Source: a virus. Taken from it: 64,000 nt of DNA. The stretch covers positions 1 through 64,000 of the IMG/VR virus record IMGVR_UViG_3300025778_000010; one strand, 5' to 3'. This document shows positions 24,585 through 40,928 of the stretch, piece by piece. The notes under the pieces are model-generated. The model was not told the DNA's origin and searched no databases. It saw only the letters and a program-made list of their open reading frames with translations. Within the stretch, counting starts at the first letter, position 1. Each line of letters opens with the position of its first letter. Position numbers and translations under genes: made by a program.

Positions 24585-25313
24585 CTATCTATATCTTTTT
24601 GGTACCCAAAGATGCTTTTTATAATACCCAACAATGTATTTTTTCTTTCTTTCCATTGCCCAATGTGCACTTTGTTGCAGATCTTTGTTTACTTTACTTT
24701 CCCATTCAGCTCTTTTAACTGGAAGTACATGCATATATGGCGTACCCGCTGGGATTATCCCTTCAAAACCTTCTTTAATGTGAAATGTGACGTTTCCAGC
24801 ACCCCAGTATTGATCTGTATCCATAATTCCTGAAACTGTCGTAAAAGGTAAATCTGTTCGATTTAAGGGGTGTGTAAAAAGAGTAGACCAACCTTTTGGC
24901 GTTTTTACACCCCAATGCATATTCCAAGAAAAGTGTGCGTTGTAATGCCCTGGTGGTGTAGGATATTGTTCTACATGTCTAACAGCTAAAGGCGATAGCG
25001 TATCTGGCCTCCAAGTTAATTGTGGAATACCTCTGACATTTTTAACAACAATATCACACCAAGTTACATAATGGTAGCCACCTGTTAGTGCATCTAAATA
25101 AACCATGCAGTGTTTTAGAGATGCATTTACACTTTTATTATCTAATGGACCTAAAACAAGTTCATCTCCTCTATGATATTTTGGCATTTTTTTCCAAAAA
25201 TCAGGAACATTTTTAATTGCTGAAACAGGACCGTCAACTATCTGAAATACGTCTTCTGTCCAAGGATAGAATTCAATTAACTGTTTTTGATCTTTATTTT
25301 TTTTACCAAACAT
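24585..25313 (-). CDS. DUF6065-like protein of unknown function (242 aa)
   Basis: The protein opens with a charged leader, then QLIEFYPWTEDVFQIVDGPV and NVPDFWKKMPKYHRGDE, then LKHCMVYLDALTGGYHYVTW. The order of 'FYPW', 'P-x-FWKKMP' and 'KxCM-x-YLDAxTxGY' resembles DUF6065, a family seen in phages and bacteria without assigned function. The C-terminus is Lys/Arg/Trp-rich (KKKYIVGYYKKHLWVPKRYR). It overlaps the downstream end of the GlcNAc-transferase-like gene by 11 bases and is co-transcribed with it. It may act with that enzyme in modification of a virion or host glycan, but this is only contextual. Confidence 0.5.
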   Translation of the reverse strand: MFGKKNKDQKQLIEFYPWTEDVFQIVDGPVSAIKNVPDFWKKMPKYHRGDELVLGPLDNKSVNASLKHCMVYLDALTGGYHYVTWCDIVVKNVRGIPQLTWRPDTLSPLAVRHVEQYPTPPGHYNAHFSWNMHWGVKTPKGWSTLFTHPLNRTDLPFTTVSGIMDTDQYWGAGNVTFHIKEGFEGIIPAGTPYMHVLPVKRAEWESKVNKDLQQSAHWAMERKKKYIVGYYKKHLWVPKRYR

Positions 25314-29912: not shown

Positions 29913-31448
29913 TTATCCGTTCGTCCAGTGCTCAGGAGAAATTAATCCTGGATAGTTAGTTGATGTATATCTTGTATCAAACATATAAAGTTGAGTTGGA
30001 GGACTTGTAAGTGCCATAGACGCACCATTTGCTATTGTATTTTGTGCCCAGTCCTTACCATTTAAATACCAGCCACCGACATCTTGAATCCAAAATCTTG
30101 AACCAACGTTACCGTCTGAGTTTTGATCTGCAGTATTAAACAAGAACTTATCTTGCTTAAATGGTGCAAGCTGTCCTCCACTACCCGTACCTTGATATTG
30201 TACTGTGTAGTAATATGCTGGGTTTGCAGTATTAGAAATAATACCAATCAAACCGCATCCATAGTAGTAGTATGGTGAATATGCTGCAACCCATTGATTA
30301 TCCCAAGTTTGAACGTGACGTTGGCCATACTGGCTACCTGAGTCAATTCCGTATGAGGTTGTTGTTCCCTGTGCGTTTAATGTTGTCATTGTTCCTGCAG
30401 TTCCTGCAGTTGTTACAACTGGAGCAAAATATCCGTAACGCATCTCGGTTGATGGTGTAAATCTTGACAAACCAACTTGTCCATTATCACAAGGAATAAC
30501 TGTCATGCGATAACGAGATTCTGTATAAGATGTTGAGTTGGTTGTTTGCCATTGAAAATCGTTATATGTGTAATAAACACCAGATGCGGTAGATAAAGGT
30601 GTACCAGCAGCTTTAGCTTCTGCCATAAAGTTATAAAGAACACCAGTAGGCAAGTTTGTGTCATATAAAGATCTGTTAGCATTTGTATTACGCCAAATAT
30701 GCATGCGGTAATTATTGTTATTATCTTTACCTTCAAGCATTACTAATGTGCGGGTTCTATCATTGTATCCAATTGATCCGTATCCATTACCGCCATACCA
30801 GGTGGCAAATAAGGAGTTGTTAATTGAATAGCCTTCATAGCCTGCCATTCCTCCAAATGGAAAAATATAAACGTTAGAATCAGATGTATACAAAGACCAT
30901 TTTTGTCTAATTCCTGATGCACCAATCATAACTCCAAAACGAGCATATGCACTTGCAAGTCCATCTTGTTGTTTTCCATAAGGTGCGTTGTTTCCAGCAT
31001 TAACCATACCTGGAACTGTTACTAACCAGTTTCCTTCTGCTTGATGGAATGGAGTTGCGTTAACCCAATAGTTTGTAACACCACCTGAACCAAAGTTTGA
31101 TGTTGTATAGTTTTGACCAGTGTACGCTTGACCAATTTCTGAGTTAGTTGTTAATGCTCCACCGTCAATAGGTTGCATATCATTGTCATAAATTGTGTAG
31201 CCAGGCGTGTTTTGGTAGTTAGAAAAATTTGCAAATGTTGGTAGTGGTTCTACCTGTGGCAATGACGATACTTGTGCTTGAACAGCTGCAAGGTTTGTAA
31301 TGGATGCACTAATACCTGAAGTTGTTGCAGATGAAGTTAAAATGCTAAGAATATTAGCATTTGTATTTAAAGCTGCAGTCATTTGTAGCTGTTGGTTTGT
31401 ATCTTGACCTGGTAGGTACAAAAATGTTGCACTTGATGAAATTGCCAT
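29913..31448 (-). CDS. Tail adhesin, paralog A (511 aa)
   Basis: Ser/Asn/Tyr-rich structural protein. The N-terminal 70 residues are helical (about 20-65). The rest is a beta-rich adhesin with motifs GYNDRTRTLVMLEGKDNNNN and NYRMHIWRNTN, then QWQTTNSTSYTESRYRMTVI and VGSRFWIQD. The paralog at 32315..33799 shares these in the same order (GYNERTSTLVALEAKDGNNN, NYRMHIWVNTS), so one arose by duplication. Homologous styles occur in cyanophage and other aquatic phage fibres. A receptor-binding role is inferred; no enzymatic motif was noticed. Confidence 0.65.
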   Translation of the reverse strand: MAISSSATFLYLPGQDTNQQLQMTAALNTNANILSILTSSATTSGISASITNLAAVQAQVSSLPQVEPLPTFANFSNYQNTPGYTIYDNDMQPIDGGALTTNSEIGQAYTGQNYTTSNFGSGGVTNYWVNATPFHQAEGNWLVTVPGMVNAGNNAPYGKQQDGLASAYARFGVMIGASGIRQKWSLYTSDSNVYIFPFGGMAGYEGYSINNSLFATWYGGNGYGSIGYNDRTRTLVMLEGKDNNNNYRMHIWRNTNANRSLYDTNLPTGVLYNFMAEAKAAGTPLSTASGVYYTYNDFQWQTTNSTSYTESRYRMTVIPCDNGQVGLSRFTPSTEMRYGYFAPVVTTAGTAGTMTTLNAQGTTTSYGIDSGSQYGQRHVQTWDNQWVAAYSPYYYYGCGLIGIISNTANPAYYYTVQYQGTGSGGQLAPFKQDKFLFNTADQNSDGNVGSRFWIQDVGGWYLNGKDWAQNTIANGASMALTSPPTQLYMFDTRYTSTNYPGLISPEHWTNG

Positions 31449-31913: not shown

Positions 31914-32318
31914 TTATTTACCTCCTGCTACAGCTGCTGCTGGAGTTGCTGTAAATTCTGGTGTTAAAGTTGCAGCAAACTTATTATGCTCTGGGTCAAG
32001 AGATGGCTCAGCAAGTGTTGCTTCTGGAACTGGGTCTCCTGGTTTATGATCATCTGGTGCAACCCATCCTAGTGGTGGAGGTGGAGTTAATGGTGCTGGG
32101 TTTCCTTCATGATCTGTCCAATTAAGTGCTGTATGAATAGCATTAATGTGATCTTGAACTTGAACCTGCTCATCACTAATTCCGTTGTATTTGTCTACAA
32201 CTTTTCCATCTTTTAATTCAAAGCGATGTGGGAGAGAGGATTCAAAAGGTGCTTCGTACTCTCCCGACTCACTAAAGCTTCCCGCAAAGCCTTCGCCTGC
32301 AAAATGCATTTTTTTCAT
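31914..32318 (-). CDS. Small adhesin-associated protein (134 aa)
   Basis: The start at 32318 is chosen because ATGA overlaps the adhesin B stop and a GGAG site precedes it; an ATG further upstream lies inside adhesin B. The sequence starts MKKMHFAGEGFAGSFSESGE. It has an acidic/His-rich middle (QVQVQDHINAIHTALNWTDH), a Pro-rich segment and an Ala-rich tail. Not recognised as a family. Its place directly after adhesin B parallels the small proteins after other adhesins, suggesting an assembly or linker role. Confidence 0.5.
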   Translation of the reverse strand: MKKMHFAGEGFAGSFSESGEYEAPFESSLPHRFELKDGKVVDKYNGISDEQVQVQDHINAIHTALNWTDHEGNPAPLTPPPPLGWVAPDDHKPGDPVPEATLAEPSLDPEHNKFAATLTPEFTATPAAAVAGGK

Positions 32319-33799
32319 CGTATTTCTCCTCTTCTCCAGTGTGCTACTGGTACTAAGTGTGGATAGTTTGTGCTTGTATACCAAGTATCAAATAATCCGT
32401 ATTGTTGATTTGCTGTTAAGTTAATTGTTCCTCCATTGGTAATTGTACCACTTGTAACACGTCCGTAGGTTTTTGCACCTTCTGGATCAATTACATAAAG
32501 TCTCATACCAATGTTACCGTCTGAGTTTTCAATAGAACGGTTAAACATAAATTTGTTTGATTTAAATGGAACTAACTGCTGGCCATTACCAGTGTCGCCA
32601 TTTTGTCCAATAAAGTAATTACGTGGGTCACGGGAATCAATAAAATAAACATTCATTCCAGAACCGTAGTAGTAATATGCATTGTATGCTGCTACCCAGT
32701 TATTATCCCAAGTAATTTGATGACGCATACCGTATTTGTTTCCATTATCAATTCCATACGATGTTGTTAAAGAAATTGTGTTTAGCTGGGTTAAAGTTGA
32801 TGATGATGGTGTGTAGTAAGCATAAGCTGATACGTTTGAAGGCACCATTCTTGCAAGACCAACAATGTTGTTATCACCAGGAATAACACGCATACGATAA
32901 CGAGATTCGTTATAGTTTTGAGATGAGTTTGCTTGCCATTGGAAATCATAATAGTTGTAAGATCTTCCAGAACCACCAAGCTTTGCTTGTGAAAGGAAAA
33001 GATTTAAAGTTCCAACGTGATAATTTGCATCATTTAATGAAATAGAAGTGTTTACCCAAATGTGCATACGATAGTTATTGTTACCATCTTTTGCTTCAAG
33101 AGCAACAAGGGTAGAGGTTCTTTCATTATAACCAATCATTCCATAGGTTGTTCCGCCATACCAAGTAGAATAAGAACCGCTGTTAATACCAACTTGTTCC
33201 ATAAATCCAAAAGCACCTCTTGTAGCAACAGCTAAAGTAGTACCATTTAGGTAAAGAGAAATTTTTTGTCTTTTACCTGATGTTCCAACTACAACACCAT
33301 AGAAAGGCATATAAGATTCTTGAGCATCTGGGTTTTTATGATAATAGCCATAGTTAGCGTTTGAAATATTAAACATCCAATGGCCGTCTGCTTGGTTAAA
33401 TGGTGTTGCACCTGCCCAATAGCTTGTCCAGCCATTTGAACCAATATTACCATTTGTATAGTTGTTACCTGTCCAAGTTGAATGCATTTCTGCGTTTGTA
33501 TCATATTCTGCAGAACCAGAATATCTCATATTTGAATCCCAAATAGAAGCATATGGTTGGTTGTTAAAGTTTGAATATGTTCCAAAATATGGATAAGGTT
33601 CTGATGAAGGTAATGCTGAAAGGCTTGCACCAAGTGCAGCAATATTTGTATTTAATGTGGCAGGAGAACCAGCTAAAGCAAAGTTTGAGATAATCTGAGC
33701 AATTGTAGCATTGCTATTAATTGCAGCATTTAAATTTGCTTGTGCGTTGGCATCAATACCTGGTAATACGATTTGAAATGTACTATTAACTACAGCCAT
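32315..33799 (-). CDS. Tail adhesin, paralog B (494 aa)
   Basis: Paralog of the 511-residue adhesin A. Shared blocks include TWYGGTTYGMIGYNERTSTL, LEAKDGNNNYRMHIWVNT, YDFQWQANSSQNYNESRYRM, RHQITWDNNWVAAYNAYYYY and a C-terminal DTWYTSTNYPHLVPVAHW. The N-terminal helical region differs more, as expected if anchoring differs. Tyr/Trp/Asn clusters are typical of carbohydrate-contacting adhesins. The stop overlaps the start of the 134-residue gene. Two copies in one genome suggest a branched tail or alternative receptor specificities. Confidence 0.65.
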   Translation of the reverse strand: MAVVNSTFQIVLPGIDANAQANLNAAINSNATIAQIISNFALAGSPATLNTNIAALGASLSALPSSEPYPYFGTYSNFNNQPYASIWDSNMRYSGSAEYDTNAEMHSTWTGNNYTNGNIGSNGWTSYWAGATPFNQADGHWMFNISNANYGYYHKNPDAQESYMPFYGVVVGTSGKRQKISLYLNGTTLAVATRGAFGFMEQVGINSGSYSTWYGGTTYGMIGYNERTSTLVALEAKDGNNNYRMHIWVNTSISLNDANYHVGTLNLFLSQAKLGGSGRSYNYYDFQWQANSSQNYNESRYRMRVIPGDNNIVGLARMVPSNVSAYAYYTPSSSTLTQLNTISLTTSYGIDNGNKYGMRHQITWDNNWVAAYNAYYYYGSGMNVYFIDSRDPRNYFIGQNGDTGNGQQLVPFKSNKFMFNRSIENSDGNIGMRLYVIDPEGAKTYGRVTSGTITNGGTINLTANQQYGLFDTWYTSTNYPHLVPVAHWRRGEIR

Positions 33800-33824
33800 T
33801 TATTTGTTCCCCTTTAAATTAAAA

Positions 33825-34142
33825 TCAAGATGATGTTACTTTTACACCAGAAACAAACACTGTTACTGATGAAGCTGCGGTAGCTGAAAGCTGAATTGAA
33901 TCTCCTGCATTCATTACCTGCTTAAAATCAAGGACCATAATCTGGCGAGGTGCTAGATCAAGATTCTGATAAAAACCAACGCCAGCAATAGACATTGTTG
34001 TCTGAAGTGCTCCGTTAGTTGAATTATTAATTGTTACAGATGTAATAACATCTGTTTCACCTGCTGGTACAGTATAAACTGTTCCGAGTGAAGTTCCGAG
34101 TGTTCCAGCATAAAATCTAGCTGGTAAGCTTACGACTGCCAT
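33825..34142 (-). CDS. Small beta-sandwich virion protein, paralog (105 aa)
   Basis: All-beta protein with TVYTVPAGETDVITSVTINN and ARQIMVLDFKQVMNAGDSIQ, layouts typical of small fibre-associated sandwiches in aquatic phages. Related to the 108-residue protein at 28547..28873. It begins the cassette containing adhesin B and its partner. Function not known; decoration or fibre-collar protein is likely. There is no catalytic residue pattern. Confidence 0.5.
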   Translation of the reverse strand: MAVVSLPARFYAGTLGTSLGTVYTVPAGETDVITSVTINNSTNGALQTTMSIAGVGFYQNLDLAPRQIMVLDFKQVMNAGDSIQLSATAASSVTVFVSGVKVTSS

Positions 34143-34145
34143 TTT

Positions 34146-34478
34146 TTAAAATACCCCCATGTTTGCGTATAGTGTGTAATTTGAAACTGCGGTATTTACA
34201 TTTGAAATAGCTGCAGTACCTGCTGTATTAACAGCAGAAATTTGTGTTGCTCCCGCAGAGGTAACTGCGGTAATTTGACCAGTTCCCGCATTTTGTACAT
34301 TCAGGATTGATGTATTGGTAGCACCAAGTACATCATTAACGCCTAAAAGATTTCCTAATGATTCTAAAGATTTTGCAAGAAACACAATGTCTTGTGCTAC
34401 AAGCGTTGTACTTTGAAGAGCATCAATTTTTGATTTTACAATAGCTACTTCTGAGCCAAGTGTTGAATAGTCTGTCAT
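34146..34478 (-). CDS. Fibre-anchor-like helical protein (110 aa)
   Basis: N-terminal DYSTLGSEVAIVKSKIDALQ and LAKSLESLGNLLGVNDVLGA match the first 60 residues of the 223-residue protein at 40257..40928 (DYTSLGSETRTIQNRIDALQ, LGVNDVVGATN). The rest is a short Ala/Val/Asn-rich coiled repeat (GATQISAVNTAG), ending with a free C-terminus. Probably a coiled-coil anchor or collar of a fibre. Two extended -10 elements lie within 80 bases upstream, making it the first gene of the leftward adhesin block. Confidence 0.5.
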   Translation of the reverse strand: MTDYSTLGSEVAIVKSKIDALQSTTLVAQDIVFLAKSLESLGNLLGVNDVLGATNTSILNVQNAGTGQITAVTSAGATQISAVNTAGTAAISNVNTAVSNYTLYANMGVF

Positions 34479-34499
34479 GTTTGGTCCACCTCTTTGATT

Positions 34500-34508
34500 A
34501 TTGTATCA
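34500..34508 (-). promoter_or_regulatory. Extended -10 promoter TGATACAAT
   Basis: Minus-strand TGA-TACAAT about 20 bases upstream of the 110-residue gene start; a second TGC-TATAAT follows at 34553. Confidence 0.45.
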
Positions 34509-34552
34509 GCAAATCTTAAAAAGTAATAATATATAGACCGCTAACTTCATTA

Positions 34553-34561
34553 ATTATAGCA
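34553..34561 (-). promoter_or_regulatory. Extended -10 promoter TGCTATAAT
   Basis: Minus-strand TGC-TATAAT in the gap after the DUF401-like gene (stop at 34569), pointing into the adhesin block. Together with the TGATACAAT site 50 bases downstream it separates the metabolic-type cassette from the adhesin genes. Confidence 0.45.
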
Positions 34562-34568
34562 TTAAATT

Positions 34569-35480
34569 CTATAAACCAGTAGTTAGGGTGTGGATAAAAC
34601 CAACCATTACTACTACTCCACAAATTGCAGCCAATGTCCTATAATAGTCTTTCCAAACCGCCCCAAAATACCTTTGCCCTAAAAGCATGCATTTATGGAG
34701 TGGTGACAACATATAGCCAGACCAGCCAATTGCAAACAAGACTGGCAAATAGGTGATGCCAAAAATTGATGCTGTAAGAGCCACAACTCCAGTAAATTTT
34801 TCGCTGCTTCCAAAGGCCCAGCTCATAAAAAATACTAAAAGAAGTATTGGGAACAACAGAACGTGCTTATCTGTATTAGCTAACAAATGATCAAAAAACC
34901 CTGAGTTATAATAAATTATATTGCCAATAATATCCAGAGCTAGTACAAAAAGTACTGTAAAAATTCCTTCTTTAAGATATTTGATTCCATCTAAATTTTG
35001 ACGTTCTCTATGGCCTCGAACAACAATATCTACATCTTCTTCTTTAACTACCCAAAAATCATAAACTAAACTACAAATAATTGCTGCTGTAAGAATTGGC
35101 CAAATACGTCCAAAAAAACTCCAATACCCAATATGTAATGCAGCCATAGGTAATATAACTGATGCTTCTAATGGGGACCAAAAATAAAAATGATGTGCAT
35201 TTAGATAATCAACAATAGCAAATTTTTTACGTTTATTTGGATCTTCTGGTGCAATAGTTCTTAGTACCCCGCCAGAAATAACTGTCCTACCGTTAATTGG
35301 CATTACAGCGGTAGTTGCAGAAGTTAATACCATGACCGCTCTTTTTGATTTAATTCTATTTGCTAACCAACCAAAAACTGGTTGAAAGACATCATATTTT
35401 GTAGCATAATATGAAAGTACAAGAACAAACGCTAATGCTGCAACATATTGCCAATCTGTTAATAAATAACTAAGTGTCAT
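34569..35480 (-). CDS. DUF401-like polytopic membrane protein (303 aa)
   Basis: At least six hydrophobic segments (YVAALAFVLVLSYYA at about 12; PILTAAIICSLVYDFW at about 127; FTVLFVLALDIIGNIIYY; VLLFPILLLVFFMSWAFG; VVALTASIFGITYLPVLFA; LAAICGVVVMVGFIHTL). Two phrases resemble DUF401 transporters: SATTAVMPINGRTVISGGV (equivalent of the family's first 'P-x-P/N-G-x-x-x-S' loop) and WSGYMLSPLHKCMLLGQRYF (family 'G-x-x-L-SP-x-H-x-C-L'). DUF401 belongs to the ion-transporter superfamily and its substrate is unknown. It is shorter than typical family members (about 400), so may be reduced. Overlaps the upstream gene by four bases. A transporter in a fibre region is very unusual. Confidence 0.5.
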   Translation of the reverse strand: MTLSYLLTDWQYVAALAFVLVLSYYATKYDVFQPVFGWLANRIKSKRAVMVLTSATTAVMPINGRTVISGGVLRTIAPEDPNKRKKFAIVDYLNAHHFYFWSPLEASVILPMAALHIGYWSFFGRIWPILTAAIICSLVYDFWVVKEEDVDIVVRGHRERQNLDGIKYLKEGIFTVLFVLALDIIGNIIYYNSGFFDHLLANTDKHVLLFPILLLVFFMSWAFGSSEKFTGVVALTASIFGITYLPVLFAIGWSGYMLSPLHKCMLLGQRYFGAVWKDYYRTLAAICGVVVMVGFIHTLTTGL

Positions 35481-37120
35481 TTTTCAACTACCAATACATA
35501 TATGCCATTCCACCAATCTTTTTCAGATTCAGTAGAATTTAGGACTTTCTTTGAATATAAAACCTTAAGGTTAGATTTTACTATTCCTTCATTTGCTCCC
35601 GCCACAACATTAGTTCCGTTAGCATCATCAAATATCATTATAGCGTTTTTAGCAAAAGATTGTGAATAATATAAGACAGCTTTTGCTGTAGTTTCTTGAT
35701 CATGTGGTCCGTCATAAAAAAACAAATCAATATTTTTAATTAAAGATAAATTTACATCAAACAAATCTGTATTACATACAAAAATTTTGTTTTCTCCAGC
35801 ATATGGCTTGATGTTTTTTTTAAATTCTTCTAAACTATTAATATTTGGAGTTAATATATCTAATCTTTCAGGTTGTGGTGCAATTTCCCATTTATCAACA
35901 AAATAAGCATTTAATTTATTATCTTTAAGGGCTGAAGCTGCGGTAGCACCTAAATATGATCCTACCTCTAAATAATTACTTGATTCTTTTGCTAAAGAGT
36001 TAATTAAAGATTGCACTCTTGAACTTGTTAACCCTGGAACATCAATATCAAGGTCCACATTTACAGAATCAACTAATTGATTAATTACAAGAGTAACTTT
36101 ATCATTTTGTTTTTCTGGATATTTAGCTTTAATAATTTTGTCACAAAATCCACAATCCCAGCAATCAAACTTGCAGTTTTTAATTTTATTACGCCATACA
36201 TTAATGGGTTTATCAACAAGATTTGTCTCTTCAATAAAATCGTTAAAGCCATCAAAAAGTATTGGTTCGTTTGCCACATACTTTTTAATAATATCCATAG
36301 TCTCACGAAGCCTTACATGAGACTCTCGCCCATGCATCTTAATTACATCAATTCCTAAATTATCCAAAAATTCCTGCCAATCTTCACGCCATGGTGGAAA
36401 ATTAGCTACCTTAAGGGATGTAGCAGCATCTTCTTTTTGCCATTTAGGGCATGATACACGACTTATTGGATCATTAAAATATTGTGGTCCTTCTGAACGG
36501 GTATTATTAAATTGATAATGCTCATCCATCATAATACAACCGCCATAGCAGCCTTCATTTGCAAGTAAAGATAGTTTAACGCCATATTTTTCTTTAGCTT
36601 TTTTAAATCTTAAAAGCTTTTCATGATCTCTCATAAGATCTCTGTCAAGATTAATATAATCAAATCCTGCTTTAGATAACTTTTCAATATCTCTAGGTTC
36701 TGATACATTTCTAAGAATTGTATTTTTTACAAACAACTTTGGGAATTTAGATTTAATTTGTCCCGTTGACATCCAGTGGGTGTGAGGAATTGTAGCTGAT
36801 CTAATACCTGCATCATATAAAGGCTTAAAGTTTTTAATCCATAGGTCTAAGTTATCTTGTGAGGGCCTTACCTCTATATTGTTAAAAACTGCTGATGCGG
36901 TTACACCAGTAAATTCTTGAATATTTAAAGCTAGATCAATTAAATATTTATGATCTTCTTCTCCACCAATAAAATTATCCCCCATAGCATCTTGTGTAAA
37001 TGGGGGTATTCGGCAGGTAAAATAAAAATCATAGATAACATGATTGTACTCTTTAAGGAATAAGATAAATTCCTCAAGCTTATCTGGAGCAAGCTTGGGG
37101 TTTAAAGGAACACTAAACAT
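35477..37120 (-). CDS. U32-like protein fused to a class I methyltransferase (547 aa)
   Basis: Residues 1-330 resemble peptidase family U32, whose members (UbiU/UbiV, TrhP/RlhA type) bind a 4Fe-4S cluster and help hydroxylate small molecules or RNA. FDYINLDRDLMRDHEKLL is followed by LLANEGCYGGC (Cys191, Cys195) and HYQFNN, then Cys224, then a tight CKFDCWDCGFC cluster (Cys316, 320, 323, 326). Residues 380-547 form a SAM methyltransferase of the Methyltransf_24 kind: NYLEVGSYLGATAASAL (motif I) and DLFFYDGPHDQETTAKAVLY. The fusion could couple oxidation and methylation on one substrate, as U32 plus methyltransferase partners do for wobble uridines in tRNA. That function is speculation; the domains are moderately secure. 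Confidence 0.6.
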   Translation of the reverse strand: MFSVPLNPKLAPDKLEEFILFLKEYNHVIYDFYFTCRIPPFTQDAMGDNFIGGEEDHKYLIDLALNIQEFTGVTASAVFNNIEVRPSQDNLDLWIKNFKPLYDAGIRSATIPHTHWMSTGQIKSKFPKLFVKNTILRNVSEPRDIEKLSKAGFDYINLDRDLMRDHEKLLRFKKAKEKYGVKLSLLANEGCYGGCIMMDEHYQFNNTRSEGPQYFNDPISRVSCPKWQKEDAATSLKVANFPPWREDWQEFLDNLGIDVIKMHGRESHVRLRETMDIIKKYVANEPILFDGFNDFIEETNLVDKPINVWRNKIKNCKFDCWDCGFCDKIIKAKYPEKQNDKVTLVINQLVDSVNVDLDIDVPGLTSSRVQSLINSLAKESSNYLEVGSYLGATAASALKDNKLNAYFVDKWEIAPQPERLDILTPNINSLEEFKKNIKPYAGENKIFVCNTDLFDVNLSLIKNIDLFFYDGPHDQETTAKAVLYYSQSFAKNAIMIFDDANGTNVVAGANEGIVKSNLKVLYSKKVLNSTESEKDWWNGIYVLVVEK

Positions 37121-37681
37121 TTATAAATCTATCTTTGCTTCTTTTTCAGGGTACTTTTGAATACCAAAATTATAATGCATTAAATCAGATGTCTCTTCCA
37201 TATCTTTGCACTCGTCAATTCTTTCTTGCATACCTTTTTTTCTTGCATAAAGATCTTCTAAGGAAAGGTATCCCATTTCTGCTTTAAAAATATCTGGAGT
37301 ACCTAAAAACATGTAAAGTTTGTTATTATAATATTTATTTAACATACAATGCATGATAGCTTTTTCAAATAAATGAGCATTATATTTATCTTCTTCTGTA
37401 AGCGTATATCTTAATTTTTCGCCAACTTGCTCTAATTTATCTTTATCTGTTTGATCATATTGATTGGTGTCTGGCCTTACATTAAAATAACCTTTTCTAC
37501 GTCCAGCAAACTTATAAGCTAAAGCTACTTTTTCTGGAATCACCATGCACTCTGGCAGAGTATCTCTGTAAACAATAAATTCTTCTGTTCTTCCAATAAG
37601 AAAACCTGCATATTGACCAATTTCTTCAATAAAACCTTTTCTTTCATTTACTAAAGAATGCTCATAAATAAAATAAATCAT
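37121..37681 (-). CDS. Unknown protein of the U32 cassette (186 aa)
   Basis: The start at 37681 lies one base after the stop of the 244-residue gene. An upstream ATG would add 15 residues inside that gene. The N-terminus (MIYFIYEHSLVNERKGFIEE) includes a strand and helix. Also visible are RKGYFNVRPDTNQYDQTDKD and a helical C-terminal half (LEDLYARKKGMQERIDECKD). Not recognised. Translation is coupled to its neighbours on both sides, so it likely works with the U32-methyltransferase protein. It could be a partner or substrate-binding subunit; no catalytic motif is evident. Confidence 0.5.
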   Translation of the reverse strand: MIYFIYEHSLVNERKGFIEEIGQYAGFLIGRTEEFIVYRDTLPECMVIPEKVALAYKFAGRRKGYFNVRPDTNQYDQTDKDKLEQVGEKLRYTLTEEDKYNAHLFEKAIMHCMLNKYYNNKLYMFLGTPDIFKAEMGYLSLEDLYARKKGMQERIDECKDMEETSDLMHYNFGIQKYPEKEAKIDL

Positions 37682-37682
37682 T

Positions 37683-38417
37683 TTATAAATCCAATTCTGC
37701 CCAACCAGCTTTATCTGAACTTTCAAGTTCTAACTTATTCATAACATCTTTTTGTACTAATTCAAGTGTTTTTTGAGTAATAATTGTTTTTTCAACAGCA
37801 TTTTCTAATGCTTTCATTCTTACTTCTTCTGGAAGTTGATAGATAGCTTCAAGATTACCACCATTAATTCTTCCATAGAACATTAAATCATAAGCAGCTT
37901 GACCGCCAAGGCGGGTTGCCCAAAGTTCTGCCTCTAAACGCTCTTCTTCATCATAATCACCAATAATGTCTATATAACGTCTGCCATCTGGCATTTTGCC
38001 TTCTTCAGATTCATTAAACTTAGTAATTAAAGCCATATATTTATCACGTTCTTCGTAAACCATTGTAACTAAATTTTTTGTATTGTAAATAGATCTTTCT
38101 TTTTCACGAATTGTAATATTATGAATTTTCTTTTGAGCAGGAGAATCTGTTTTTTCTAATAATTCTTTTTCTAATTCTACTTCTGCTTGCAATTTTTCAA
38201 TTTTAAATTCATATTCAACAATATTATCTTCTCTTGATTTTAATTCAAGAAGAAATTGTCTTAGCTTTCCAAAATTGCTATATTGTGCTCCTCCAACAAA
38301 GTTATCAATCTTAAATGTTGGAACGCCCCAATTTCTATTTACTGCATATAAAAGCATATCTCTTTGTTCTTTTGAATAGCCGTCAACACGACTTGTAATA
38401 TCGTTAATATATCTCAT
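37683..38417 (-). CDS. Unknown coiled-coil protein of the U32 cassette (244 aa)
   Basis: First gene of a coupled four-gene cassette, 15 bases after a fibre gene. It has a strongly charged coiled-coil from about residue 60 to 160 (EYEFKIEKLQAEVELEKELL, then REKERSIYNTKNLVTMVYEE). An N-terminal helix (DGYSKEQRDMLLYAVNRNWG) and a C-terminal helical region ending EKTIITQKTLELVQKDVM follow. No known domain recognised. Similar long helical proteins occur in aquatic myo- and siphoviruses as accessory genes. The gene could form the scaffold of the complex, but this is inference. Confidence 0.5.
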   Translation of the reverse strand: MRYINDITSRVDGYSKEQRDMLLYAVNRNWGVPTFKIDNFVGGAQYSNFGKLRQFLLELKSREDNIVEYEFKIEKLQAEVELEKELLEKTDSPAQKKIHNITIREKERSIYNTKNLVTMVYEERDKYMALITKFNESEEGKMPDGRRYIDIIGDYDEEERLEAELWATRLGGQAAYDLMFYGRINGGNLEAIYQLPEEVRMKALENAVEKTIITQKTLELVQKDVMNKLELESSDKAGWAELDL

Positions 38418-38432
38418 TAATTTATCTTTCTT

Positions 38433-39350
38433 TTATGATCGTTGTGAGTTGTATGCAGAACTTCTGCCTGCGGGTCCTTGAGGTTGCATTGAAGATCCGC
38501 CCTCGTACCCTGAATCTGTTATATAGCTATAACGCCAAGCTCTTCTGTTTTGTGATCCATCGTAATTACCCATGCAGTATTGATGGTCTTGACCCATATC
38601 AAAGTTTTCTTCTCCGCAGTTACCAATTGGTTTTGAAACGTTACCTACGTTTGTTTCTGTTGCAACTGACCAACGACGTAAATAATAGCCTCCATTATAA
38701 CCTCCTTCATTACCTGCATAAAGGTAATTTAATTTAGAGGAAATACCTTTTTGTTGACCCCAATATCCACAAACGCTTGATTGTGATTGTGTTTCTGTTG
38801 CAAAAACAAATTTCATACCAATATTATTGTCTGCCCATGTATAACCAACATATTCATGATAAAAAGATGAACCACCCGAACCACCAGTAGTGTTTGAATA
38901 AGCATTTGACAAAGATGTTTGCCAAGTTGCATTTATCATATTAAATTTTACGATAGTTGTTGAAACATTTGCATTACCGTAAGCAAATTGTTGTTCTTTT
39001 TGCATAAATACACCTGAATTACCCAGTGAAACTGGAGCTGAAGCAGCAGTTGAGCCAACTTCTGTTCTCATATTAAACTGCATTACTGCTGGATCTGAAC
39101 CACCTACACCATTATTAGCTTTTGTAATCCAAGCTACGTTGTCATTGGCAAATCCTCCTGGATAACCCGTAGCTGCTGTAAGCACATCTCCTAAAGAAAC
39201 TGGAGTATCATTTGAGTGTAAATATCTATTTACATTTTTCCAAGGTGAGCTATTTTGGTATCCAGAGTGAACATACCCTGTTGTGATAACAGTTCTTAAT
39301 AAAAAACTTACTCTTGGATTATTGTGAATAGTACTTTGTGGAAATGGCAT
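38433..39350 (-). CDS. Tail fibre protein, cyanophage-like adhesin (305 aa)
   Basis: Gly/Asn/Tyr/Ser-rich structural protein with adhesin motifs AYSNTTGGSGGSSFYHEYVG and CMGNYDGSQNRRAWRYSYIT. The ending is Gln/Pro/Gly-rich (SSMQPQGPAGRSSAYNSQRS). Style resembles phage fibre tips of aquatic phages. It is followed by the four-gene cassette and preceded by a chaperone-like gene (overlapping at 39350) and a small sandwich protein. The N-terminal 60 residues likely connect to the preceding fibre elements. Receptor unknown. Confidence 0.6.
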   Translation of the reverse strand: MPFPQSTIHNNPRVSFLLRTVITTGYVHSGYQNSSPWKNVNRYLHSNDTPVSLGDVLTAATGYPGGFANDNVAWITKANNGVGGSDPAVMQFNMRTEVGSTAASAPVSLGNSGVFMQKEQQFAYGNANVSTTIVKFNMINATWQTSLSNAYSNTTGGSGGSSFYHEYVGYTWADNNIGMKFVFATETQSQSSVCGYWGQQKGISSKLNYLYAGNEGGYNGGYYLRRWSVATETNVGNVSKPIGNCGEENFDMGQDHQYCMGNYDGSQNRRAWRYSYITDSGYEGGSSMQPQGPAGRSSAYNSQRS

Positions 39351-39859
39351 TATGAACTCACAATGTAGCTTAATTTAACCCCTTGAACGTTAAGAGAAGG
39401 ATATTTTACGTCAAATGGATCAGCAATATTATCTGGCAAATCTCTTAAAGCTTGGCGATATTCAATAATTTTTTGTTGATCTTCTGCAGAAAATTTAGAA
39501 AAATAATCTGAAAGTACAAGATAGTCTGTTTCCTTAATCATATTATTTCTATTATATCTAATAGCATTAATTTGAGTATTAACTGATTCTAATTTTTCAT
39601 CATCAGTCATGTCAACTGCAACAACATGTGATGTTGGAACATTATTTTCAACAACTGTTACATACTCTAATTTTTGATTTTTTGGATCATATCCAGGTAA
39701 TGTTGGGTTAGATACAACTGGTTTCCAATCATCAAAACCAATTACATGTTCTTCATTAATATCTGCTGGAAATAGCGTTGATGGATAAAGAGATCTGAAT
39801 TCATATTCAGAAATAACTTGACCCAAAGAACCATCTGAGTTAATTTTTGCAAAGTTCAT
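39350..39859 (-). CDS. Tail fibre assembly chaperone-like protein (169 aa)
   Basis: The start at 39859 makes an ATGA overlap with the preceding stop; an ATG 33 bases earlier would sit inside that gene. C-terminal region INAIRYNRNNMIKETDYLVL, then DQQKIIEYRQALRDLPDNI, is a clear match in style to the phage tail assembly chaperone family of the PF16778 type ('R-x-x-RN-x-x-x-x-x-TD-x-x-x-L'). The N-terminal half is a beta domain (AKINSDGSLGQVISEYEFRS). It lies between a sandwich protein and the 305-residue fibre, so it probably helps trimerise that fibre. Confidence 0.65.
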   Translation of the reverse strand: MNFAKINSDGSLGQVISEYEFRSLYPSTLFPADINEEHVIGFDDWKPVVSNPTLPGYDPKNQKLEYVTVVENNVPTSHVVAVDMTDDEKLESVNTQINAIRYNRNNMIKETDYLVLSDYFSKFSAEDQQKIIEYRQALRDLPDNIADPFDVKYPSLNVQGVKLSYIVSS

Positions 39860-40257
39860 CGTGTATCCTTCATTACTATATTGCCTCTCCAAGTTGTACC
39901 ATTATCATAACTTACAAATGTTAATGTGTCAACTCCTGTGCTTGTTAGTGTTGGTGGGGTTGCTGATGGATATTTTGAACCCGCAAATGTTAATGTATAC
40001 TGTCCTCCATTTGTAATGGATATTGAAAATGATACTGTACCTGAAGATGGAACGTTAATTGGGGTTAATGTAATTGAAGCTCCTGCTGTAAAAGTAAAAT
40101 CATTATATTGAGAAAGATCTAGGTTTGTATTAGTTGTTAAAGTTCCAAGATCTTGTCTCTTTGTATTATAACCAGCAAGTGTAAATGTGTTTGCTGTTAA
40201 ACCTGTAACAGTTGCACCTGTAAAACTGGCATTAATTACATCTGATAAATTTGTCAT
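39856..40257 (-). CDS. Beta-sandwich fibre segment protein (133 aa)
   Basis: TAATG coupling with the upstream gene fixes the start at 40257, five codons after an alternative ATG. Strand pattern TFTAGASITLTPINVPSSGT, then SISITNGGQYTLTFAGSKYP and TFVSYDNGTTWRGNIVM. It has the same layout as the 149-residue protein at 31462..31911. The 'D-NGTTW-x-G' ending is common at fibre tips. Role inferred as small adhesin or collar protein. Confidence 0.5.
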   Translation of the reverse strand: MTNLSDVINASFTGATVTGLTANTFTLAGYNTKRQDLGTLTTNTNLDLSQYNDFTFTAGASITLTPINVPSSGTVSFSISITNGGQYTLTFAGSKYPSATPPTLTSTGVDTLTFVSYDNGTTWRGNIVMKDTR

Positions 40258-40928
40258 TAGAATACTCTCCATCCATATGTGGAGTTAGAGTAAATAAATC
40301 TTTTACCCGCTCCATTTACGTTAAAGTTAAATGTTGTTATTGAACCTTGAATAATACCACCTGCACCTGCAGTAACAGTAAATGGAGTTGATGCTGATGT
40401 TCCTGCAGCATCTACAATAATAACTTCTGCTCCAATTGATGGGGCAGAAGGTAGAGTAATTGTAAGTCCTGAAGCTGGAACCACAAAATATCTATCTCCA
40501 TTTACAGCAAGTTTATTTGCAGTAATAATTTGCCATGGATTATAGGAAGCTAAAGCTGAAACTGCAGCAGATGCTGAGTTTGCTGTTGCTGCAATATTAG
40601 AAGAAACTGATTCAAGAGAAGCAATGCGACCATTGTGGTTTGTATAAAGAATATTTAAAGCATTGTATTGGCTTGATAGTGATGATACAGCAGAACCATT
40701 TGATGTTCCATTTACAACGTTAATTGTTGAAGCTCCTGCAGCTGCTACTTGAGCAATTCCCGCATTTGTTGCACCAACAACGTCATTAACACCCAAAGAT
40801 GTTCCTAAAATTTGCAAAGCTTCAGAAAGATAAAGAATATCTATAGCAGCAATAGTGCTACCTTGTAAAGCATCAATTCTGTTTTGAATAGTTCTAGTTT
40901 CACTACCCAGCGATGTATAGTCTGTCAC
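40257..40928 (-). CDS. Fibre anchor and beta-tip protein (223 aa)
   Basis: N-terminal 60 residues match the 110-residue anchor protein at 34146..34478 (DYTSLGSETRTIQNRIDALQ, LGVNDVVGATN). A long coiled part (LSSQYNALNILYTNHNGRIA) follows. A C-terminal beta domain ends GGIIQGSITTFNFNVNGAGK, then FIYSNSTYGWRVF. This is typical of short fibres with an Ala/Ser-rich stem and globular tip. Sharing the anchor implies both proteins dock at the same site. Coupled to the next gene by TAATG. Confidence 0.55.
   Translation of the reverse strand: MTDYTSLGSETRTIQNRIDALQGSTIAAIDILYLSEALQILGTSLGVNDVVGATNAGIAQVAAAGASTINVVNGTSNGSAVSSLSSQYNALNILYTNHNGRIASLESVSSNIAATANSASAAVSALASYNPWQIITANKLAVNGDRYFVVPASGLTITLPSAPSIGAEVIIVDAAGTSASTPFTVTAGAGGIIQGSITTFNFNVNGAGKRFIYSNSTYGWRVF

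Follow-up and report, generated by a model that had tools for sequence, protein, structure and literature searches.

The sequence analysed here, referred to below as the window, comprises 64 kb (positions 1 to 64,000) of a 108,356-base IMG/VR virus record (IMGVR_UViG_3300025778_000010) and comes from a tailed phage of the lambda/HK97 type, with a portal (phrog_12), a head protease and tape-measure genes. In its fibre region lie four minus-strand genes, here called A, B, C and D, which a first-pass annotation had described as a metabolic-type cassette inserted between two anchor genes. We find that A-B-C-D is instead the distal part of a fibre-tip, or host-recognition, unit that is exchanged between phages as one piece and that includes a predicted Kelch adhesin, F. 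From the upstream border downwards, the features of the locus are:

40257..40928, minus strand: anc1 (anchor gene 1), the fixed upstream border of the slot, kept with or without the unit across 67 anchor-seeded loci
39856..40272, minus strand: TF, which opens the exchanged unit and encodes a small tail-fibre-like protein (phrog_9017 tail fibre, 2.3e-9)
39350..39892, minus strand: APC, tail-fibre assembly chaperone (PF16778 Phage_tail_APC, 39.7 bits, cut-off 26.6)
38433..39350, minus strand: F, predicted Kelch beta-propeller adhesin (phrog_1417), the tip domain of cyanophage T4-GC 351
37683..38417, minus strand: A, helical protein, obligate co-diverging partner of F (phrog_1409 = T4-GC 353, 4.8e-27)
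37121..37681, minus strand: B, short T4-GC 352 family protein (graded alignment through intermediates)
36086..37120, minus strand: C, N-terminal domain, predicted U32-like (beta/alpha)8 barrel (AlphaFold2, Foldseek, seven invariant cysteines)
35477..36040, minus strand: C, C-terminal domain, Methyltransf_24 O-methyltransferase (PF13578, 35.2 bits, cut-off 26.3)
34569..35480, minus strand: D, accessory gene for a DUF401-like membrane protein (PF04165, 41 bits, cut-off 24)
34146..34478, minus strand: anc2 (anchor gene 2), the downstream border of the slot, which opens the next fibre unit

The four genes (D 34569-35480, C 35477-37120, B 37121-37681, A 37683-38417) are all present as open reading frames and are as tightly coupled as first described: a single base separates the stop codon of A from the ATG of B, B and C abut, and C and D share a 4-nucleotide (nt) ATGA overlap. 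The start of B is the ATG at 37681; a longer, TTG-started frame would overlap A. F lies only 15 nt upstream of A, with the overlapping TF and APC genes further upstream, so the real unit exceeds four genes, and the tight packing extends through F, APC and TF as far as anc1. The G+C content of A, B and C is 29-31%, against 36% for the window. The two anchor genes are indeed related, one profile matching both (1e-86 and 7.5e-32), and each heads its own fibre unit.

Comparison with relatives shows how this block moves. In the 67 anchor-seeded loci of the window's lineage, the slot holds TF-APC-F-A-B-C-D in 23 and an alternative tip in 44. Unit-bearing slots span 5.8-6.5 kb and contain D in every case (23/23), while the alternative slots carry a 1.3-1.9 kb tip and a small second gene, and F, A, C and D in 0/44. 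The order anc1-TF-APC-F is conserved, and downstream the order anc-g33825-TF is kept whether the slot holds the unit or an alternative tip. On a tree of the flanking upstream structural protein, at least five changes of state are needed, all of them forced by well-supported branches. The unit also crosses phage types, occurring with a T4-type portal in 10/30 records and with a lambda-type portal in 8/30, never with both. The idea of an inserted island in the fibre region, with non-structural genes among the structural ones, thus holds in that the genes are exchanged as a block; its borders had been misplaced, and the picture of a four-gene metabolic cassette between adhesins gives way to a unit that contains the Kelch adhesin and its chaperone genes. 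In some relatives (e.g. L338, in our numbering of loci), the alternative tip between the anchors is a homologue that resembles two paralogous adhesin-like proteins (29913-31448 and 32315-33799, minus strand, 45% identity) that the window carries in its next fibre unit.

The linkage is equally strict in wider collections. C, A and the F tip domain each match 123 of 50,697 phage records, with identical organism and host breakdowns, as compared by totals and breakdowns rather than by intersecting the records one by one. A full-length F query finds 139 records, the extra matches, among the matches listed, covering only the N-terminal anchor; in the two of these that were inspected, P-SSM7 and S-CAM22, another tip follows the anchor and A and C are missing. 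Among IMG/VR loci, whose seeds are biased towards closer relatives, F and A accompany C in 61/61 C-seeded loci (counted with 4.5 kb upstream) and the B family in 58/61, and A and C accompany F in 41/41 F-seeded loci (with 4.5 kb downstream). As for homologues occurring singly or in unrelated contexts, in none of the loci tested did A, B or C occur apart from F, whereas D is found alone elsewhere. Inheritance as a coupled block, exactly together with a Kelch adhesin, is firmly supported. The genes of the block differ in tempo: F, A and B have mean identities of 37, 33 and 24%, C one of 58%. F, A and B co-diverge, with distance correlations of 0.84-0.88 (with F, 0.88 for A and 0.84 for B); D follows them loosely (0.41-0.54). 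Tip and helper genes likewise swap as a block in T4 gp37/38 and in Mu S/U-type cassettes; the unit described here differs in adding an obligate enzyme and, in the window's lineage, a membrane protein.

For F, the predicted fold is a Kelch propeller of six blades. Its AlphaFold2 model (predicted local distance difference test score, pLDDT, 87.3) is all-beta with about 24 strands, arranged as six four-stranded blades that superpose on solved Kelch domains, and Foldseek aligns it with the Kelch domains of Keap1 (E 1e-13, template modelling (TM) score 0.72-0.80), even though no Pfam Kelch match was found in the sequence. Its top viral match is a cyanophage protein annotated as 'sericin 1-like'. 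The C-terminal motif of F, G.SSGxCxWRD, is conserved in 210/213 copies. We considered this tail as a recognition signal for a modifying enzyme, an idea weakened by the tail being likely the closing strand of the propeller. Among F copies accompanied by a halogenase, 26/33 have the tail tryptophan, as do 194/303 of those without one, a comparison confounded by ancestry and not used.

A and B, the two proteins that had been listed as unknown, have no Pfam match. B has no direct phage match, and IMG/VR intermediates connect it to T4-GC 352, from which it differs mainly in having lost a central helical segment; that B is an unrelated protein was rejected, as it grades into this family. By homology A is T4-GC 353 and C is T4-GC 354, so that the unit corresponds to the cyanomyovirus clusters T4-GC 351-354, recorded as hypothetical (Sullivan et al., 2010) and ordered F-352-353-354 in P-HM2, Syn19, S-H25 and P-RSM1. 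Further isolates with the unit include S-RIM2 and P-SSM4. The window differs from these phages in being of siphovirus type, in having B after A, in its truncated B and in the attached D. We found no published function for T4-GC 351-354.

C (phrog_1458, with phrog_36869 covering its N-terminal half) had been read as a U32-like/methyltransferase fusion, and its predicted structure agrees. The AlphaFold2 model (mean pLDDT 85.5) consists of eight alternating strands and helices followed by a Rossmann domain. The first part is predicted to have the triosephosphate isomerase (TIM) barrel fold of U32 proteins, and the best-scoring TIM-barrel chain is the U32 protein Mk0906 (5d88; Foldseek probability 1.00, E 6.3e-6, TMt 0.59), with unrelated aldolase barrels scoring closely behind. 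Seven cysteines (C191, C195, C224, C316, C320, C323 and C326, spaced as CX3C, a single C and CX3CX2CX2C) are invariant, all seven being present in 87/87 homologues. With UbiU, UbiV, TrhP and RlhA, all of the U32 family, C shares the (beta/alpha)8 barrel, a first cysteine pair after strand 7 and a KxxGR-type motif at strand 8; it differs from them in its cysteine set, its fused O-methyltransferase and its lack of a significant profile match. No Pfam match to PF01136 (Peptidase U32) appeared at E <= 1, nor in the genomes with C fragments (0/2), and with membership by Pfam or profile-profile comparison not significant we use the label 'U32-like' only. The second domain scores above the Methyltransf_24 cut-off, conserves G387, G391, D470, D498, D499 and N501 in the motifs EVGSYLG, FYDGPHD and DDAN, and finds the O-methyltransferases TomG, COMT and TrmR (5zw3) as Foldseek matches. 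The seven cysteines and the S-adenosylmethionine (SAM) and metal motifs are retained in at least 97% of homologues, which indicates catalysis. A PDB sequence search with C, A, B, D and F returned nothing meaningful.

The company of C in related loci is also informative. A radical SAM gene directly precedes C in at least 25 viral loci, where the barrel and the methyltransferase of C are usually separate proteins, and some relatives' loci add a tryptophan halogenase (PF04820) and 2-oxoglutarate (2OG) oxygenases. Radical SAM proteins upstream of C with conserved extra cysteines are encoded at L217:4847-5845, L056:7983-9017 and L220:6957-7979; of these loci, L217 and L220 encode C as two proteins and L056 as one. 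As regards a maturation system for ribosomally synthesized and post-translationally modified peptides, which would call for a short precursor peptide with a leader and for a recognition element, relatives have radical SAM and halogenase partners, but a precursor peptide was not seen. A host origin of C was rejected: among ~85,000 bacterial and archaeal species genomes, C occurs in only two contigs, both fragments of metagenome-assembled genomes (MAGs). These marine contigs, L090 (PBPE01000072.1) and L089 (DANB01000001.1), labelled Dehalococcoidia and Euryarchaeota, are probably phage contigs binned with hosts.

D is DUF401-like, as proposed, with 41 bits to PF04165 against a cut-off of 24 and about five hydrophobic segments in a simple scan; it falls below the TIGR00529 equivalog cut-off (38.7 against 378.4). 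It is frequent elsewhere, and was rejected as an obligate part of the unit: in D-seeded loci, C lies within 10 kb in 28/78, with many other contexts, and the window's D matches only 9 phage records compared with 123 for C. In the window's lineage, D accompanies the unit as an accessory and does not define it. In some loci, family 2 (GT2) glycosyltransferases lie near D. In unit-less phages (L099, L100, L107, L136 and L166), D is directly followed by a gene for an outer-membrane beta-barrel (OMP_b-brl/KdgM-like), which suggests a separate phage-borne pair of inner- and outer-membrane proteins. Another family, of ~230 amino acids, without Pfam match and with the motif 'PARxFVPDWYK', adjoins C or D in 31/87 relatives; the window encodes a homologue (1e-65) far from the cassette, at 24585-25313 on the minus strand.

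What would such a unit do? The linkage is easier to square with enzymes that modify either the adhesin or its receptor than with general metabolism, and we tentatively favour, with slightly less than even confidence, a Kelch adhesin served by dedicated enzymes, with F itself as their most likely substrate. F would be an adhesin unusable without its dedicated partners, among which the fast, co-diverging A and B would be helpers, perhaps adaptors or chaperones. The putative iron-sulphur barrel of C would most likely hydroxylate an aromatic side chain of F before assembly, and the fused O-methyltransferase would then cap the newly made hydroxyl, so that the finished tip would bear chemistry beyond the genetic code. 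The radical SAM enzymes, tryptophan halogenases or 2OG oxygenases of related loci would extend the same modification, and D, a membrane accessory of the IT-transporter type, could supply a precursor.

Several lines of evidence point this way, beginning with the obligate F-A-C linkage, the all-or-none exchange, the predicted Kelch fold of F and the occurrence of the unit with two portal types. A slowly evolving C tied to a fast F suggests that the target of C is something conserved in F and not the changing receptors. U32 enzymes are O2-independent hydroxylases that use a 4Fe-4S cluster (PMC6747719), and TrhP followed by TrmR forms a U32/O-methyltransferase pair that hydroxylates and then methylates to give 5-methoxyuridine in tRNA (PMC6599085); hydroxylation followed by O-methylation of an F residue is proposed on the strength of these enzymes. 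The Bacillus subtilis TrhP and TrmR share with C the pairing of hydroxylase and O-methyltransferase, differing in that they are separate proteins that act on tRNA and have no adhesin link. The halogenase, 2OG oxygenases and radical SAM enzymes of relatives are typical of aromatic or peptide chemistry, and a flavin halogenase that acts on a ribosomal peptide is known (PMC10858898). In the open-licence literature we found no description of fibre-tip modification by such enzymes.

Other observations weigh against this reading. Profile-profile comparison of C with 26 U32 sequences gave hhalign probabilities of only 5-25%, which is not significant, and C does not have the known U32 4Fe-4S pattern of four cysteines (CX6CX15CX3/4C; PMC6747719), its spacing being different. 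The window's unit itself contains no halogenase, 2OG oxygenase or radical SAM gene, and the conserved C-terminal motif of F could simply reflect the propeller's closing strand. The modified residue, the iron-sulphur cluster and the activity of C are all putative, and the linkage would fit receptor modification equally well.

Receptor modification would resemble seroconversion: the enzymes would alter the adhesin's own receptor, C modifying the receptor or a precursor and D helping to move the group across the membrane, so that progeny or sister phages avoid the producing cell and its debris. Tailspike-linked seroconversion is established in P22-like phages. Genes that alter a receptor should swap with the adhesin that binds it, as observed, and D is a membrane protein found beside outer-membrane barrel genes elsewhere and, in some loci, near GT2 glycosyltransferases. 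However, receptors vary by host, whereas C evolves slowly across viruses of many hosts while F evolves fast; tryptophan halogenases and radical SAM enzymes would be unusual for glycans; the window's D is far rarer among phage records than C; and A and B are left unexplained. We consider this explanation, the main rival, unlikely.

We judge it quite unlikely that A, B and C instead form part of the virion or assist in assembling the Kelch tip, A and B as adaptors or chaperones and C as a chaperone or structural protein that has retained an enzyme fold. Chaperones commonly accompany fibre tips, A and B co-diverge with F, and the genes occupy a late, structural position. The cysteine, SAM and metal motifs kept across the homologues of C nevertheless speak for catalysis, and that some loci encode it as two separate proteins next to a radical SAM enzyme also counts against this reading.

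Small-molecule biosynthesis or scavenging, as auxiliary metabolism or for a secondary metabolite, would account for the mixture of halogenase, 2OG oxygenase, methyltransferase and transporter, and a similar cyanophage cluster has been so interpreted (Iyer et al., 2021; PMC7824862). We find it improbable, because it offers no reason for the tie to one adhesin fold (23 loci against 44, all or none; 123/123/123 records) and because C was found in only two MAG fragments among the cellular genomes scanned. An auxiliary metabolic cassette would be of cellular origin and independent of structural genes; apart from those two fragments, C was found only in viral contigs, and it is always with F. The cyanophage halogenase/2OG clusters (Iyer et al., 2021; VirX1 of Syn10) do have enzymes of these types within or close to fibre regions, but were earlier read as metabolite or capsule decoration, without mention of a connection with C or with a Kelch adhesin. 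In Syn9 (L095, L096; record 32965-36070), two tandem tryptophan halogenases and several 2OG oxygenases lie beside virion fibre genes, and C was not seen in the region. S-SM1 (L094; record 33496-36678) has no T4-GC 351-354, its corresponding slot being filled by a series of 2OG oxygenase genes and of genes named 'denV'. Finally, RNA modification by C as a fused TrhP-TrmR analogue, making tRNA 5-methoxyuridine to aid phage translation, is very improbable: although TrhP and TrmR perform exactly such chemistry (PMC6599085) and TrmR (5zw3) is among the fold matches of C, the strict linkage to an adhesin tip would be unexplained, the sole tRNA of the window is a tRNA-Asp (anticodon gtc) and the cysteine pattern of C is unlike that of TrhP.

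On balance, and with confidence that stays somewhat below even, we propose a class of adhesins whose host-binding Kelch propeller is post-translationally modified by dedicated, obligately linked redox and methyl-transfer enzymes, with different phage orders exchanging the tip together with its chemistry. If C modifies F, host recognition in these phages would use side-chain chemistry that is not genetically encoded, four long-standing hypothetical clusters (T4-GC 351-354) would gain a function, and the halogenases and many 2OG oxygenases beside cyanophage fibre genes may be explained. If the substrate is instead the receptor, the strict linkage of adhesin and enzyme across unrelated phages would offer a new way to approach host range and the control of superinfection.

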